Assembly: GCA_012729455.1 (NCBI GenBank) | Contig: JAAYDC010000006.1 | Span: 91,782 to 155,781 of the forward strand | Direction of reading: 5' to 3' | Length of the DNA: 64,000 bases | From: Chloroflexota bacterium | GTDB taxonomy: Bacteria > Chloroflexota > Anaerolineae > UBA1429 | Part shown: positions 46,025 to 63,077 of the stretch, piece after piece | Position numbering within the stretch: the stretch's first letter is position 1 | How the letters are laid out: each line of letters opens with the position of its first letter | Translations under genes and position numbers: made by a program | The notes under the pieces: generated by a model | What the model was told of the DNA's origin: nothing | Seen by the model: the letters and a program-made list of their open reading frames with translations, nothing else | Databases searched by the model: none

Positions 46025-46054
46025 ATGCCCAGAAACCACCGAGAGGAGCCTGTG

Positions 46055-47164
46055 ATGAAGACGGTCAAGATCGGGATTATTGGTTGCGGCAACATCAGCT
46101 CTGCCTATCTGCGTACGGTTCAGACTTTTGACATCCTCGAATGCGTAGCGCTGGCAGATCTCGACTTGGAACGCGCCCGGGCACGTGCCGAAGAGTTTGG
46201 TGTGCCCAAAGCCTGCACTACCGAAGAGCTGCTGGCTGACCCCGAGATCGAGCTGGTCGTCAACCTGACGATCCCGGCCGCGCACTTTGAGGTCTCGATG
46301 GCCATCATCGAGGCGGGCAAGCACGTATATACCGAAAAGCCACTGGCGATCATCCGCGAAGACGGCGCCAAGATCCTGGACGCCGCCAAAGCCAAGGGCG
46401 TCAGGGTGGGCTGCGCGCCAGGTACCTTTATTGGCGGCGGCCTGCAGACCTGCCGCAAGCTGCTCGACGACGGCGCCATTGGCCGGCCGGTGGCTGCGGC
46501 GGCCTTTATGATGTCGCACGGTGCCGAGCATTGGCATCCCGACCCGGCTTTTCTCTACCAGATCGGCGCCGGCCCCATGTTTGATATGGGTCCCTATTAT
46601 CTGACGGCTCTCACCACCCTGCTGGGGCCGATTACGCGCGTAGCGGGCAGTGCCGGCATCCAGATCTCGCCGCGCACCATCACCAGCAAGCCCAAATATG
46701 GCGAGCAGATCATCGTGCGGACGCCCGATCATGTCACCGGCACCTTTACCTTTGCCTCTGGAGTGATCGGCACGATCATCACCAGCACCGCCGTGTGGGC
46801 TGCCAGCCTGCCGCGCATCGAGATCTATGGCACTGACGGCACGCTATCGCTTCCCGACCCGAACTCGCTGGGCGGACCTGTTAAACTGGCCAAAGCCGGC
46901 GAGAGCGAGTTCACCGAGATCCCCCTTACCCACGGACATGCCGACAGTCGCCAGATGTGGGGCATCGGCGTGGCGGATATGGCGCACGCGCTACGCTCGG
47001 GGCGCGCGCACCGCGCGTCAGGCGCCCAGGGCTACCATGTGCTCGACCTGATGCAGGCCTTTTTGGATAGCTCGCGCGACGTCCAGTACGCGCAAATCAC
47101 TAGCACCATTGAACAACCCAAAGCCTTGCCGTTGGGCCTGGCAGAATCGGTTTTGGACGACTAA
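46055..47164 (+). CDS. Gfo/Idh/MocA-family oxidoreductase, copy 1
   Basis: 369 residues from the ATG at 46055, with GAGAGGAG upstream. N-terminal Rossmann fold with GIIGCGNIS and the family motif TEKPLA near residue 93. The C-terminal dehydratase-like domain contains FDMGPYYLTALTTLLGP, in place of the more usual G-x-x-x-D-x-G-x-H. The family oxidises a hydroxyl of sugars or cyclitols with NAD(P). First gene of the plus-strand arm. The next gene is a close tandem copy. Substrate not assigned; inositol, galactose or glucoside dehydrogenases all belong here. Confidence 0.92.
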   Translation: MKTVKIGIIGCGNISSAYLRTVQTFDILECVALADLDLERARARAEEFGVPKACTTEELLADPEIELVVNLTIPAAHFEVSMAIIEAGKHVYTEKPLAIIREDGAKILDAAKAKGVRVGCAPGTFIGGGLQTCRKLLDDGAIGRPVAAAAFMMSHGAEHWHPDPAFLYQIGAGPMFDMGPYYLTALTTLLGPITRVAGSAGIQISPRTITSKPKYGEQIIVRTPDHVTGTFTFASGVIGTIITSTAVWAASLPRIEIYGTDGTLSLPDPNSLGGPVKLAKAGESEFTEIPLTHGHADSRQMWGIGVADMAHALRSGRAHRASGAQGYHVLDLMQAFLDSSRDVQYAQITSTIEQPKALPLGLAESVLDD

Positions 47165-47182
47165 ACGATAGGAGCCAACCAC

Positions 47183-48292
47183 ATGCGCCCAGTCAAGATC
47201 GGGATCATCGGTTGCGGCAACATCAGTGCCGCCTACCTGCGCACCGTGCAAGCCTTCAAGATCCTCGAGTGCGTCGCCCTGGCCGATATCGACCTGTCGC
47301 GCGCCGAGGCACGCTGCAGCGAGTTTGGCGTGCCGAACGCCGTCAGCGTCGCCGAGTTGTTGGCGATGGACGAGATCGAGATCGTCGTGAACCTCACTAC
47401 ACCTCAATCTCACCGCGAGGTCAGCTTGGCGGCCATTGCAGCGGGCAAGCACGTCTATACCGAAAAACCGCTGGCGGTGAGCCGCGCCGAAGGCGCAGAA
47501 ATCCTGGCTGCCGCGCAAGCCAAGGGTGTAAGGGTCGGCTGTGCACCTGGCACCTTTTTGGGCGCAGGATTGCAGACCTGTCGCAAACTGATCGACGACG
47601 GCGTGATCGGCCGGCCAGTGGCCGCTTCTGCCTTTATGATATCGCACGGACACGAGAGCTGGCATCCGGATCCGGCATACTATTACCAGCCCGGCGCCGG
47701 ACCCATGTTTGATATGGGTCCCTACTATCTCACCGCGCTCACCACCCTGCTGGGGCCGGTAGCAAGGGTGGCCGGTACGGCGGGTATCCAGATCTCACCG
47801 CGCACCATCACCAGTCAACCCAAGCACGGTGAACAAATCATTGTCAACACTCCCGATCACGTCGCCGGCACCTTTACCTTTAGCTCTGGCGCGATCGGCA
47901 CGATCATCACCACCTTTGCCACCTGGGCATCGGTGCTGCCGCGCATCGAAATCTATGGCACCGAGGGTACCCTGGCTGTGCCCGATCCCAACTCGCTGGG
48001 CGGGCCTGTCAGACTGGCTAAAGCCGGCGAGCGCGAGTTCAGCGAAGTGTCCCTCAGCCACGGACATGCCGATGGTCGCACCAAGTGGGGTATTGGCGTG
48101 GCGGATTTGGCGCATGCGATCCGCTCGGGCCGACCGCACCGCGCCACCGGAGCGCAGAGCTACCATGTACTCGAGTTGATGGAAGGCTTTCTCACCTCCT
48201 CAGCCCGGGCAGAATACCTGACGGTCGAGAGTACCTTTGAGCGACCCAGCGCGTTGCCGCTGGGCTTGCCCGAAGACATGCTGGACGACTAA
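47183..48292 (+). CDS. Gfo/Idh/MocA-family oxidoreductase, copy 2 (tandem paralogue)
   Basis: 369 residues, the same length as copy 1 and alignable along the whole length without visible gaps; more than two-thirds of positions are identical by eye, including GIIGCGNIS, YTEKPLA, VRVGCAPGTF, GPMFDMGPYYLTALTTLLGP and the C-terminal LPLGL. The differences are spread over both domains (for example HFEVSMAIIEAG versus HREVSLAAIAAG), so both copies look functional. AGGAG lies eight bases before the ATG. The pair may form a heteromer or oxidise two positions or two epimers of the same substrate. Confidence 0.92.
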   Translation: MRPVKIGIIGCGNISAAYLRTVQAFKILECVALADIDLSRAEARCSEFGVPNAVSVAELLAMDEIEIVVNLTTPQSHREVSLAAIAAGKHVYTEKPLAVSRAEGAEILAAAQAKGVRVGCAPGTFLGAGLQTCRKLIDDGVIGRPVAASAFMISHGHESWHPDPAYYYQPGAGPMFDMGPYYLTALTTLLGPVARVAGTAGIQISPRTITSQPKHGEQIIVNTPDHVAGTFTFSSGAIGTIITTFATWASVLPRIEIYGTEGTLAVPDPNSLGGPVRLAKAGEREFSEVSLSHGHADGRTKWGIGVADLAHAIRSGRPHRATGAQSYHVLELMEGFLTSSARAEYLTVESTFERPSALPLGLPEDMLDD

Positions 48293-58527: not shown

Positions 58528-60747
58528 TTACTCGGCGATGATGCGGTCGACCACCAGCTGGCGGAATTTGGGCGAGAGGCTGGCAAAGTAAGCCGAAAAG
58601 CCCGTCACGCGCACCACTAGGTCGGGGTATTTCTCAGGCGCCATATGGGCCTGCAGCACTTCTTCCTTATCCATGATGTTGATGTTGACCTGCGTGCCAC
58701 CCAGGCGCATGTGGGTGGCGATCAGTTCGGCCACCCGCTCCACACCGCCCTCGTCGCGCGCCAGGGCCGGATCCAGCTCGATCTGCATCGGCGCCGAGTT
58801 GCCCCAGGCGGGCTGCACCGCGGCGATGGCGGTGGCCATGGCACTGGGGGCACCATCCTGACGGAAACCCGGGTCGGGATTGGCGCCGTGCGATATGGGT
58901 GCGCCTTTGTGACGCCCGTTGGGGGTGGCCCCCAGAGCGGCGCCCATCGGGATGGTGTTGGCCCATGAAAAGATGCCCGGAATCATGTTAAAGCCTTGCG
59001 GTGTAGGCTTGGCCTTGATCAGCTCGGAAAAGAGCTGCGAGACGCGCACTGCCCAGTCATCCGCCAGAGAACCGCCAGTGCCATAGCGCGGGATGCTGCG
59101 CATCATCAGGCGGTGACGTTCGCCCTCGGGGAGCCCCCAGTCGCTATCGAGATCGGCCAGGAGTTGCTGCCAGGTTATCCGACCTTCGCGCTCGATACGC
59201 TGGTCGATGGCGGCGAACGAATCGGCCACAGTGGCCAGGGCGGCGGCGTCAACTCCGAGATTGACGTACTCGACACCGCCATAAGAGGCATCCAGACCGC
59301 GCTCGATCGTGCCGTGGCATAACAGGTCGATCACCAGCTCGGGAAAGGTCTCGTGCTGGTGCGCCATGTGCATGTCCAGCCCCTCGGCGATGGTCGCCAC
59401 TGCGCACTCCAGGTGATCGCGATAGGCCGCCCAAAGGGCGTCGAGGCTGGGGTTGGGCTCACGCGCGAGCATATCGCGCAGGGCTACATCAAAGACGGCC
59501 GCCAGGTTGATCTTGACACAATCGTTGATGGTGTATTCGCGCCCAGGCAGGGCGAACCAGTGGCAGCCGGCATAAGCACGTTGGCGTGCTATCTCGATCG
59601 GGATACCATTGCGCGCAAAATCCTCGGCGATGCGCTCGACATTGACGAACTTTGGTATGCCCGTGCGGTCGCTAAAGAGCACCTCGATACCGCGTCTGAG
59701 CAGGCCATCGTCGCCATGCTCGCCGACAGCCACCGCCACGTTGGCGGGGATACGCAGGCGATGGGCAGCCTCCAGCACCAGGTAGGAAAGCGGACTGGAC
59801 ACGTCGCGCCCGGTTTCGTCGGGACCACCCAGTTGGATATAGGAGGTATCGCGCAGCAAGAGGCACGCCAGATGAAAAATAGCCTGTTCATCATTGAGGT
59901 GCCCGGCGATCACATCACGGTCGTAAAAGGGCTGCAGTATATAGTCGAGCCGTCCGAGCGACCCCGAGCCGTTGTACATCCGCGCGGTAATCTGGAACCA
60001 CAGGATCCACTGACAGGCCTCGCGAAAGGTGCTGGGCGGTTCACTCACCAGCTTGCGGTTGATGCCAGCCATCTCGCGCAGGTTCTGAGCCAGAAGCTCA
60101 TCGGGCTCGGACACTGCCAGCGCCTCGGCATGTTCGGCGGTGCGGGTGATCCAATCCTGCAGGCCGATGACGACCGCCTCCAGGCCATCATAGAACTCGG
60201 CGGACGAGGGATTGACTCTGCGATAGTGCGTGATGCGCGCGAGGATACCGCCCCAGCCCTGCTCCAGGCCGATGGTGAGATCCTGGCAAAAGTGCTGCCC
60301 CGCGCCAATCCCCGTGATGAGCTGGTAGCGTTTTTGGCGCTCGTGCAGATGCGAGTAATCGTTCTCGGGCTTCCATCCGCTCTTGCGGTACGAGCCAAAG
60401 TTGACCATGTAGCCGCCCGCCAGCGAGCTGCGCGGGTCGACATAGGGCGGGTGCTGGCGCATCAGGGCGCCAAAGTTTTCGCCGCAGGCACGTGCGCCAT
60501 AAAAGGCGCCGTTGGGGTGGTTGGGGGCGGGCTCAAAGCCATCCACCAGCACATCGGTGATTGGCAGCCCCGAAGGGCCCATTGCCTTCACCACCTTGCG
60601 GGATGCTTCGGGCGGCAGGATCAGCGCCCAATCGTCATGGTCCATCGCGCCGATCAACTCTTGCTTGGCGCACGTTTGGGCCAGTTTTTCGGCGCGTAAC
60701 GCCTCCAGGCGTTCCAGCAGGCATTCGTCTGTCAGCGTTTGTGACAT
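58528..60747 (-). CDS. Glycyl radical enzyme of unassigned substrate
   Basis: 739 residues from the ATG at 60747, with GGAGGGG upstream. C-terminal glycyl radical motif RVTGFSAYFASL with Gly716, 23 residues from the end, as usual. The catalytic cysteine is Cys395 in AGCHWFALPGREY. Pyruvate formate-lyase has two adjacent cysteines, and the dehydratase, CutC and decarboxylase types have Cys-x-Glu; this protein has Cys-His-Trp, so it fits neither. Such enzymes are oxygen-sensitive and need a radical SAM activase; none is adjacent. Third gene of a likely operon with the GNAT and pfkA genes (gaps 21 and 28 bases). Confidence 0.87.
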   Translation of the reverse strand: MSQTLTDECLLERLEALRAEKLAQTCAKQELIGAMDHDDWALILPPEASRKVVKAMGPSGLPITDVLVDGFEPAPNHPNGAFYGARACGENFGALMRQHPPYVDPRSSLAGGYMVNFGSYRKSGWKPENDYSHLHERQKRYQLITGIGAGQHFCQDLTIGLEQGWGGILARITHYRRVNPSSAEFYDGLEAVVIGLQDWITRTAEHAEALAVSEPDELLAQNLREMAGINRKLVSEPPSTFREACQWILWFQITARMYNGSGSLGRLDYILQPFYDRDVIAGHLNDEQAIFHLACLLLRDTSYIQLGGPDETGRDVSSPLSYLVLEAAHRLRIPANVAVAVGEHGDDGLLRRGIEVLFSDRTGIPKFVNVERIAEDFARNGIPIEIARQRAYAGCHWFALPGREYTINDCVKINLAAVFDVALRDMLAREPNPSLDALWAAYRDHLECAVATIAEGLDMHMAHQHETFPELVIDLLCHGTIERGLDASYGGVEYVNLGVDAAALATVADSFAAIDQRIEREGRITWQQLLADLDSDWGLPEGERHRLMMRSIPRYGTGGSLADDWAVRVSQLFSELIKAKPTPQGFNMIPGIFSWANTIPMGAALGATPNGRHKGAPISHGANPDPGFRQDGAPSAMATAIAAVQPAWGNSAPMQIELDPALARDEGGVERVAELIATHMRLGGTQVNINIMDKEEVLQAHMAPEKYPDLVVRVTGFSAYFASLSPKFRQLVVDRIIAE

Positions 60748-60775: not shown

Positions 60776-61873
60776 TCAGCGAATAGGCCCGTCGCCCATG
60801 CTGACGCCGATCGAGCGCGCCGACTTGACCCACGGGTGGTCAGGCGGTACAAGGCGCAGCTTGCCAGCCACCGAGTTAAGCTTGACGGGTACACACTCGT
60901 CGCCCTTGGCTGCCACCATCACCCCGGTCACACCCTCCATCACTAGGTCGACAGCATAGGTTCCCAGGCGAGTGGCCAACAGGCGGTCGGTGGCGGTTGG
61001 GGTGCCTCCGCGCTGCAGGTGTCCCAGCGAGGTAAAACGGCATTCCAGACCAGTGGCCTTTTCGATCGCAGTGGTCAGCTTGATGTTTCTGCTGGCGGCA
61101 AAACTGCTGTCGCCATCTTCCTCGGTATCGGACTCGGGTTCTGCGCCGGCAGCTTCGCTTTCGGCGGCGGATAGAGCCCCTTCAGCCACCGCCACAATAC
61201 TAAAGCGCTTGCCGTGCCGCGAGCGGTTGGCGATCGCCTCCACCACATATTCAAAGGTATAGGGGATCTCGGGGATCAGTATCACATCGGCACCACCGGC
61301 GATGCCGGCCCCCAGGGTAAGCCAGCCGGCGTTGTGGCCCATGATCTCGACCACAATGACACGCTGATGGGCATCAGCAGTGGTGTGCAGGCGGTCGATG
61401 CCCTCGGTAGCGATACCCAAGGCCGTGTCAAAGCCGATCGTCAGGTCGGTTCCGGCCACATCGCCGTCGATCGTCTTGGGCAGGTTGATGATCTCCAAGC
61501 CCGCCTTGGAGAGGCGGTTGGCGTTCTTGAGCGTGCCGCCGCCGCCCAGGCACACCAGGGTATCCAGATGCAGGCGCTGGTAGTTCTCGATCGCCACGGC
61601 GCTCATATCCATCTCGCCCACACCAGCCACCGGCATGCGGTGCGGTTTATCGCGGCTGGTGCCCAGTATGGTGCCGCCCATCGTCAGGATGCTGGAGAGA
61701 TTAGAGTTATCAAGACGCACAGTACGGTTTTCGACCAAGCCGCGAAAGCCATCTAAAAAGCCGATCACCTGCATGCCCTTGGAATACGCGGCCTTGCCGA
61801 CGGCGCGGATGGCGGCATTCAAGCCGGGGCAATCGCCGCCAGCTGTCAACACACCGATGATCTTGTCTGCCAT
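60776..61873 (-). CDS. pfkA: 6-phosphofructokinase (PfkA family, group III-like)
   Basis: 365 residues, AGGAGGG before the ATG. The N-terminal [16 protein letters not shown] and [20 protein letters not shown], with Lys after Pro, place it with the actinobacterial/long PfkA group whose members use ATP or pyrophosphate. The phosphoryl-donor loop reads [11 protein letters not shown]: the acidic residue of the normal GGDGS or GGEGT loop is Gly. An acidic, Ser/Ala-rich insertion of about 30 residues ([17 protein letters not shown]...) lies before the segment [17 protein letters not shown]. Substrate motif MGHNAGWL and [14 protein letters not shown] are intact. Second gene of the operon with GNAT and the glycyl radical enzyme. 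Confidence 0.92.
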
Positions 61874-61894: not shown

Positions 61895-62983
61895 CTAAAA
61901 GCGGTCAGTCGCATAGATGTACGGATAGCCGAACGGGAAGATCGCCTGCAGCACCTCTATGAGTTCATCGGGCACGATGACATCGCTCTCAAAGAGCGAC
62001 TCGGCGATCTCGCGGTAGCCCAGCAGCCACTGCGTGAGCAGGGTTTGCGGCAGCTCCAGAGTGGTGGTGGTGCCCTCGCCAAGCTTGACAGAGGTGGCAC
62101 CCAGATCAGTTTTAAAGAGCAGCGTACCGCGCCAAGCGCTGCCGGAGGATTCCAGACGGCGTTTGAACACCGGCCGCAGAGCCTTGAGCACAGTCGACTG
62201 GTCGATCAGGCGTGCCATGCCGCCCGAGTTGCGTGCATAGTTGAGCGATGTGCTGCAGCCATAACGGCGCGCGTAATGCAGGAAGGGGTCATCAGCGGGG
62301 GCATGTAACACCAGGAACTCAACACGCTTTTCCAGGGCCTGGCGCGTGCCTTCGGCCAGGATAGTGCTCCAGGCATTCGGCGTGCTATAACCTATCTCGC
62401 CAAGAGCATGATGTCCGGGGTTGAGCTCGTAGCTGGCATACCCGATGATCTTGTCGCCATCCAGCACCACAAAGGCGCCAATGCGGTCGCTCCAGTTGCC
62501 GCCGATGCGAAAGCCGGACCAGGTTTTCGGGTCACGCGCGCAGCTAAAGGTGCGCTCGGCGGTCATCTGCTCATATATTTCGGCCACCCGTGGATGATCA
62601 GCTGGCTCCAACTCGCGCACACTGTAGCGCGCCTGGGCAAACTCTGCATCGCGCAACGGCACCGAGGATTCAATGCCCGGCAGCGCCACCACATAACCGA
62701 ACTTGGGGTAAAAATTGGGGATCCCAAACAGCGCCGAAAAGTGGAACTGTTTCTCCTGCATATAGGCCACCGCGTCCTGCATCATCATGCGGGCATAGCC
62801 ATGCTGGCGATGCTCGCGGCGCGTCGAGACGTCGCCGATCCCGCCGCAGGTAAAAAGCTTGCCGCCGATGCGCACCAGGCGGTCGTAGACGAGTACGGAG
62901 CTGGCAACCTTGTCTTCGACGAGCACCTCGATGCGGGTGCCGGATTCGAAAGGCGTTCTGCGCAGTGCTGGTGTTGCACTCAT
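61895..62983 (-). CDS. GNAT N-acetyltransferase (Eis-like, multi-domain)
   Basis: 362 residues from the ATG at 62983, chosen for CAGGAG upstream; the frame is open to 63061 but a promoter lies within that stretch. Residues about 1-150 are a GNAT fold with the acetyl-CoA loop TRREHRQHGYARMM. A second GNAT-like part follows (GDKIIGYASYELNPG), and the C-terminus (about 265-362) resembles the SCP2-like domain of Eis proteins. It should acetylate an amine of a small molecule or peptide. First gene of the operon with pfkA and the glycyl radical enzyme. Confidence 0.83.
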   Translation of the reverse strand: MSATPALRRTPFESGTRIEVLVEDKVASSVLVYDRLVRIGGKLFTCGGIGDVSTRREHRQHGYARMMMQDAVAYMQEKQFHFSALFGIPNFYPKFGYVVALPGIESSVPLRDAEFAQARYSVRELEPADHPRVAEIYEQMTAERTFSCARDPKTWSGFRIGGNWSDRIGAFVVLDGDKIIGYASYELNPGHHALGEIGYSTPNAWSTILAEGTRQALEKRVEFLVLHAPADDPFLHYARRYGCSTSLNYARNSGGMARLIDQSTVLKALRPVFKRRLESSGSAWRGTLLFKTDLGATSVKLGEGTTTTLELPQTLLTQWLLGYREIAESLFESDVIVPDELIEVLQAIFPFGYPYIYATDRF

Positions 62984-63010
62984 GAGCCACTCCTGGCTGG
63001 TAATGCTGTA

Positions 63011-63039
63011 GGTATAGCGAACGCGGGGCTCGCTGTCAA
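63011..63039 (-). promoter_or_regulatory. Promoter of the GNAT-pfkA-glycyl radical enzyme operon
   Basis: Minus strand TTGACA (63039-63034), 17-base spacer, TATACC (63016-63011). Confidence 0.8.
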
Positions 63040-63048
63040 CAACGCGCA

Positions 63049-63077
63049 TTGACAAGCGCAAAGCGTGCCTTTATACT
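63049..63077 (+). promoter_or_regulatory. Promoter of the nuclease-like/hpt unit
   Basis: TTGACA (63049-63054), 17-base spacer, TATACT (63072-63077). Its -35 faces that of the GNAT promoter across nine bases, forming an inverted TGTCAA-N9-TTGACA. Confidence 0.82.

Follow-up and report, generated by a model that had tools for sequence, protein, structure and literature searches.

A glycyl radical enzyme gene of a Chloroflexota genome belongs to an uncharacterised, deeply separated subfamily with a Gly-Cys-(His/Asn)-Trp motif

A gene within a 64,000-nucleotide stretch of Chloroflexota DNA (hereafter the window, which starts at C30:91782) encodes what is, by its sequence, a genuine glycyl radical enzyme (GRE), a kind of radical enzyme that is sensitive to oxygen, and the subfamily it represents is uncharacterised and deeply separated from the other GREs compared. 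The signature of this subfamily, in which a tryptophan stands where GRE eliminases carry the glutamate of their CxE motif, is more aptly written GC(H/N)W, i.e. Gly-Cys-(His/Asn)-Trp, than Cys-His-Trp as in the original prediction. Lyase chemistry on a carbohydrate-derived substrate appears to be its likeliest function, with non-eliminase radical chemistry as a serious rival; in either case, the subfamily probably stands for a new substrate or reaction.

The reading frame lies on the minus strand, begins with an ATG at 60747 that is directly preceded by GGAGG, and continues through 739 codons without an internal stop to a TAA ending at 58528. Its product matches both Pfam domains of a GRE, PFL-like (PF02901, 2.5e-83) and Gly_radical (PF01228, 2.1e-14), the latter with 54.4 bits against a cut-off of 22.2, and its C-terminal motif RVTGFSAYF is of the RVxGF/Y type. 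With the frame exact, both domains matched and the residues Cys395-His396-Trp397 placed, the initial assignment as a Cys-His-Trp GRE holds. The positions of the features discussed here are compiled in Table 1.

Table 1. Location of the GRE gene, its upstream neighbours and selected residues in the window
Feature	Position	Strand	Basis
GRE gene, 739 aa (P0001), GC(H/N)W subfamily	58528..60747	-	open frame, PF02901 + PF01228, AlphaFold2 full GRE fold
Phosphofructokinase gene, 28 bp upstream of the GRE gene	60776..61873	-	PF00365 1.2e-97
GNAT acetyltransferase gene, upstream of phosphofructokinase (gap 21 bp)	61895..63061	-	PF13527 6.4e-18
Cys395-His396-Trp397, presumed thiyl Cys; Trp at CxE Glu position	59557..59565	-	alignment
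Gly716, presumed radical glycine in RVTGFSAYF	58600..58602	-	PF01228 match, alignment
His152, kept with the CxE enzymes compared	60292..60294	-	alignment
Glu404 to Asp409	59521..59538	-	alignment
Glu404, invariant in the family only	59536-59538	-	alignment
Asp409 (Cys+14), common to PflD and glycerol dehydratase	59521-59523	-	alignment
Glu470, found in every family member, but not in the outside GREs compared	59338..59340	-	alignment
Asp500, found in every family member, but not in the outside GREs compared	59248..59250	-	alignment

Aligned with the E. coli enzymes, the presumed catalytic Cys395 within AGCHWFA (RAYAGCHWFALPGREYTIND) falls on the cysteine of the CxE motif in PflD and YbiW; in PflB, its counterpart is the second residue of the Cys-Cys dyad. 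Trp397 occupies the place of the CxE glutamate. Tryptophan at Cys+2 is found in all 51 aligned family sequences (query included), and Cys+1 is either His (38) or Asn (13), a few loci having been reached via two collections and counted twice. Because the motif is conserved in this manner, with Trp397 kept in 51/51, chance or a sequencing error as its origin could be ruled out. The statement that the enzyme has neither the Cys-Cys of pyruvate formate-lyase (PFL) nor a CxE motif thus applies to the whole family, with Gly394-Cys395 in place of the dyad.

Scanning species genomes yielded 23 related loci, of which 21 cover most of the gene; plasmid records added two, and relatives of the window's genome contributed further ones. 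According to the titles of the MAG records, in which binning errors are possible, the carriers include Chloroflexi, Ignavibacteriae, Bacteroidota, Latescibacterota, Armatimonadetes, Opitutaceae, Actinobacteria and Clostridiaceae; the genes of Persicobacter psychrovividus and Flammeovirga kamogawensis sit on complete plasmids. The family is rare: three of 399 evenly drawn Chloroflexota genomes carry a member, as do 17 among the 100 relatives of the window's genome that were searched, and the closest homolog (L009/L078) shares 75% identity with the window GRE. Literature searches within an open-access subset found no paper on a Cys-His-Trp GRE.

Phylogenetic placement sets the family apart from everything it was compared with. 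In an IQ-TREE analysis of 41 GREs—the family, PflB, PflD, YbiW, glycerol dehydratase, CutC, six paralogs from the window's own genome and further GREs from its relatives, leaving out bg_L126, which is in the wrong reading frame—the family is split from all other GREs, PflD and YbiW included, with an UFBoot value of 100, the stem measuring 1.28 substitutions/site. Identities between the window GRE and outside GREs are 21–27%. The CxE enzymes may be the sister group of the family, but their order relative to PflB reaches only 60% in this tree, which contains neither decarboxylases nor X-succinate synthases. PflD pairs with bg_L098, a relative's CxE enzyme, at UFBoot 98. Clustering with a characterised family that also carries Cys-His-Trp, which the original prediction had raised as counter-evidence, was not seen in this tree. 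Within the family, a single GCNW clade was recovered by FastTree, but not by IQ-TREE, and is therefore not claimed here.

None of the NCBIfam models reaches its cut-off for the window GRE. TIGR01774 scores 273.5 bits against a cut-off of 678.2, and the equivalogs for CutC, HypD and sulfopropanediol dehydratase score lower, all below cut-off. TIGR01255 (pyruvate formate-lyase) reaches 87.8 of 994.2 bits, and the models for the 4-hydroxyphenylacetate and indoleacetate decarboxylases reach 126.3 of 1150 bits (NF033715) and 120.8 of 1100 bits (NF033718), respectively. Among proteins of solved structure, PflD is the best sequence match (1.6e-58), and MasD and TutD score 84 and 64 bits.

An AlphaFold2 model built with 22 family sequences (mean pLDDT 84.8, pTM 0.88) matches the GRE fold over its full length. 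Comparison by VIA-align gave Z scores of 31–34 for eliminases including PflD, CutC and glycerol dehydratase, 29–30 for IslA, HpsG and decarboxylases, 28–30 for succinate synthases and 25 for PFL; the class III ribonucleotide reductase NrdD scored about 18. The predicted fold is hence that of a whole GRE and closest to the eliminases; rows within one Z unit were treated as tied, so no single eliminase is counted as the nearest. In the Cys loop (396–409), pLDDT falls below 50, and the catalytic base proposed below is therefore read from the alignment only.

That alignment shows which parts of the eliminase active site are kept and which are replaced. His152 and Asp409 are invariant in the family and present in PflD, the former also in YbiW and the latter in glycerol dehydratase. 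In turn, Glu404, Glu470, Asp500, Arg390, Tyr303, Gln305, His99 and Tyr141 are invariant in the family without a match in PflD or YbiW. Two segments differ in length: a stretch of ∼21 residues of PflD containing STSSARYFAGFP is absent from the window GRE, and the segment that carries His281-Ser282 in glycerol dehydratase is shortened. The CxE motif has been named as a conserved feature of GRE eliminases, and in IslA its glutamate binds the substrate hydroxyl, with the E470Q exchange abolishing activity (PMC8473560). Given that this residue is essential in IslA, an eliminase without it would have to employ another group in its stead; its loss in the family consequently means that either another residue does its job or the reaction differs.

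A GRE requires a partner for radical formation, and the original prediction noted that no activase gene is adjacent. This is correct for the window locus. Yet, an activase adjoins the GRE gene in about 20 of 48 related loci, so a missing activase is no property of the family. The search for an activase elsewhere in the genome, as had been proposed, led to one just outside the window on the same contig: in this 2.64 Mb genome (99.2% complete), a single protein exceeds the TIGR02494 cut-off (C30:87412-88275), ∼3.5 kb to the left of the window and 62 kb from the window GRE. It adjoins another GRE gene, with the motif TCVEM, and is 66–67% identical to activases adjoining GCNW/GCHW genes in two relatives and 57–60% identical to three more in Chloroflexota-type loci, compared to 42% for YbiY, 34% for PflC and 28% for PflA.

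This one activase faces eight GREs in the same genome (G000), which are encoded on C11, C15, C16, C17, C20, C23 and, in two cases, C30. Similar ratios occur in relatives of the same family, with six GREs to one activase in G001 and nine to one in G007. The imbalance suggests a promiscuous activase, and cross-activation of the genome's GREs by this one protein is implied. Two of the paralogs are peculiar in themselves. The GRE at G000:C20:42235-43955 (L008, L076) is split into two overlapping frames of 538 and 260 aa, reflecting a frameshift or an assembly error, and own_L006 (G000:C15:107831-109378) is an unusual GRE with GCWE in its Cys loop that is also found in a relative (bg_L119).

The gene neighbourhood had originally been read as an operon with phosphofructokinase and a GNAT enzyme, hinting at central or sugar metabolism. 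The close same-strand spacing of the three genes (28 and 21 bp) is compatible with an operon. The related loci examined did not show this arrangement beside the GRE gene, however; because these neighbours are local and not conserved, they were rejected as functional context. The hint at sugars, although not its basis, finds backing in the wider neighbourhoods of the relatives. In Ignavibacteria-type loci, genes for sugar ABC transporters occur together with those for a URO-D-like protein and for an HldE-like PfkB-HAD protein, a set to which L028 adds a GmhA-like isomerase. A sulfatase-like gene lies directly upstream of the GRE gene in L080 and L084, DUF2961 directly downstream in L009/L078, and GH47 together with a small putative cupin beside it in the two Bacteroidota; MurQ is found in L093 and MFS transporters in L025, L095 and L096. 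In two loci (L018:1987-9748 and L089:92-7853), a GH42-like gene is followed in tandem by the genes for a GCNW GRE, for an activase and for a GCHW GRE, and the two motif types may cooperate or have related substrates. Neighbourhoods vary between loci, and the window gene itself is without a clear catabolic operon. Carbohydrate use is the common theme; the substrate may differ from locus to locus.

Two further observations concern these neighbourhoods. A close URO-D relative occurs in eleven GRE loci, and the URO-D/MtaA-like proteins beside the GRE (L017:12348-13445, L021:4255-5403, L029:8770-9903, L081:11182-12381, L088:4161-6286) perhaps have a role in methyl transfer. The window also holds a pair of neighbouring, similar genes from one family (46025-48292) that by eye look like GFO/IDH/MocA oxidoreductases and have relatives near the GRE in L029 and L082.

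The reading we tentatively prefer, while giving it slightly less than an even chance, is that of a working GC(H/N)W GRE acting as a radical lyase that cleaves a C–O bond of a sugar or sugar-derived polyol, be it by dehydration or by ring opening. The genome's single radical-SAM activase would place the radical on Gly716, which, judging from the conserved GRE architecture, would hand it to Cys395 for abstraction of a substrate hydrogen. With Trp397 standing where the glutamate of CxE eliminases deprotonates the substrate hydroxyl, and with parts of two active-site loops missing, one of the new invariant acids (Glu404, Glu470 or Asp500) might take over proton transfer together with Asp409. This proposal is supported by the tryptophan at Cys+2 of every family sequence, by the separation of the family from all other GREs tested, by the fold being closest to eliminases, by the retention of His152 and Asp409 alongside new invariant acids, and by the 57–67% identity of the genome's activase to those beside Chloroflexota family members. 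A sugar substrate is favoured because ABC transporters, the HldE-like kinase, the GmhA-like isomerase, the sulfatase, DUF2961, GH47, the GH42-like protein and MurQ are encoded beside relatives, and because PflD, the best solved match, opens an anhydrosugar phosphate. Against the proposal stand the low pLDDT of the Cys loop, the differences in neighbourhood between loci, the window gene's want of a clear catabolic operon and the essential glutamate of IslA.

The same loss of the CxE glutamate from every family member, together with the very long stem, the two shortened loops, the new set of invariant residues and the precedent of PFL and X-succinate synthases operating without this glutamate, also speaks for non-eliminase chemistry on a sugar-derived substrate: epimerisation by hydrogen-atom transfer, C–C cleavage or C–C formation. 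We consider this less likely, though a serious rival, as eliminases are the closest match by fold and by sequence score, Asp409 and His152 are retained and other invariant acids could stand in for the glutamate. An equally guarded place is due to the related idea that GC(H/N)W marks a separate lineage with a radical reaction new for GREs, e.g. carbohydrate C–C cleavage or epimerisation. If true, this lineage would have become distributed over environmental anaerobes as a means of using sugars, with one activase running eight different GREs in this genome.

Closer to known biochemistry, the enzyme could be a divergent anhydrohexitol-6-phosphate enzyme that performs the reaction of PflD and YbiW and merely tolerates the tryptophan, as its best solved match, a PGR-Y-D stretch after the cysteine resembling that of PflD and the kinase and sugar genes near the GRE in relatives might indicate. 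This is improbable in view of the grouping of PflD with bg_L098 rather than with the family, an identity of only 24%, scores far under the curated cut-offs and the missing PflD loop FAGFP; moreover, no PTS genes were noticed beside family GREs. Still less probable is a non-catalytic or degenerate paralog. While the lost glutamate and the lack of an adjoining activase in this genome would fit such decay, the cysteine, the glycine and a wide range of further residues do not vary among carriers whose labels span many phyla, activases and catabolic genes adjoin the GRE in relatives, and the genome does encode an activase.

Members in named organisms with complete plasmids (P. psychrovividus and F. 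kamogawensis) make the subfamily testable. Tryptophan for the CxE glutamate in every member, combined with retained radical machinery and an eliminase-like fold, constitutes a natural test of the role of this glutamate, and the arrangement of one activase with many GREs bears on activase specificity.

Among known systems, PflB shares the GRE fold (Z 25) and the radical glycine with the window GRE, which differs in being without the Cys-Cys dyad and is only 21% identical. The X-succinate synthases BSS and MasD likewise share the fold (Z 28–30) and also work without the CxE glutamate, but their sequence scores are lower, and genes for accessory subunits were not noticed next to the window GRE. 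The CxE eliminases—glycerol/propanediol dehydratase, CutC, HypD, IslA and HpsG—are alike in fold, Gly and Cys loops and His152, and glycerol dehydratase in Asp409 as well, whereas the window GRE lacks the CxE motif and misses every curated family cut-off. PflD and YbiW of E. coli are, as reported in PMC12441222, GREs for 1,5-anhydromannitol-6-P and 1,5-anhydroglucitol-6-P that catalyse ring opening (JACS 2024, doi 10.1021/jacs.4c07718). Both carry the CxE glutamate, show 24–25% identity and fall outside the family in the tree. With their fold (Z 33 and 32), their sugar context and, for PflD, the shared His152, Asp409 and PGR-Y-D stretch, they are nevertheless among the nearest characterised enzymes and provide the best functional analogy for the GC(H/N)W subfamily.
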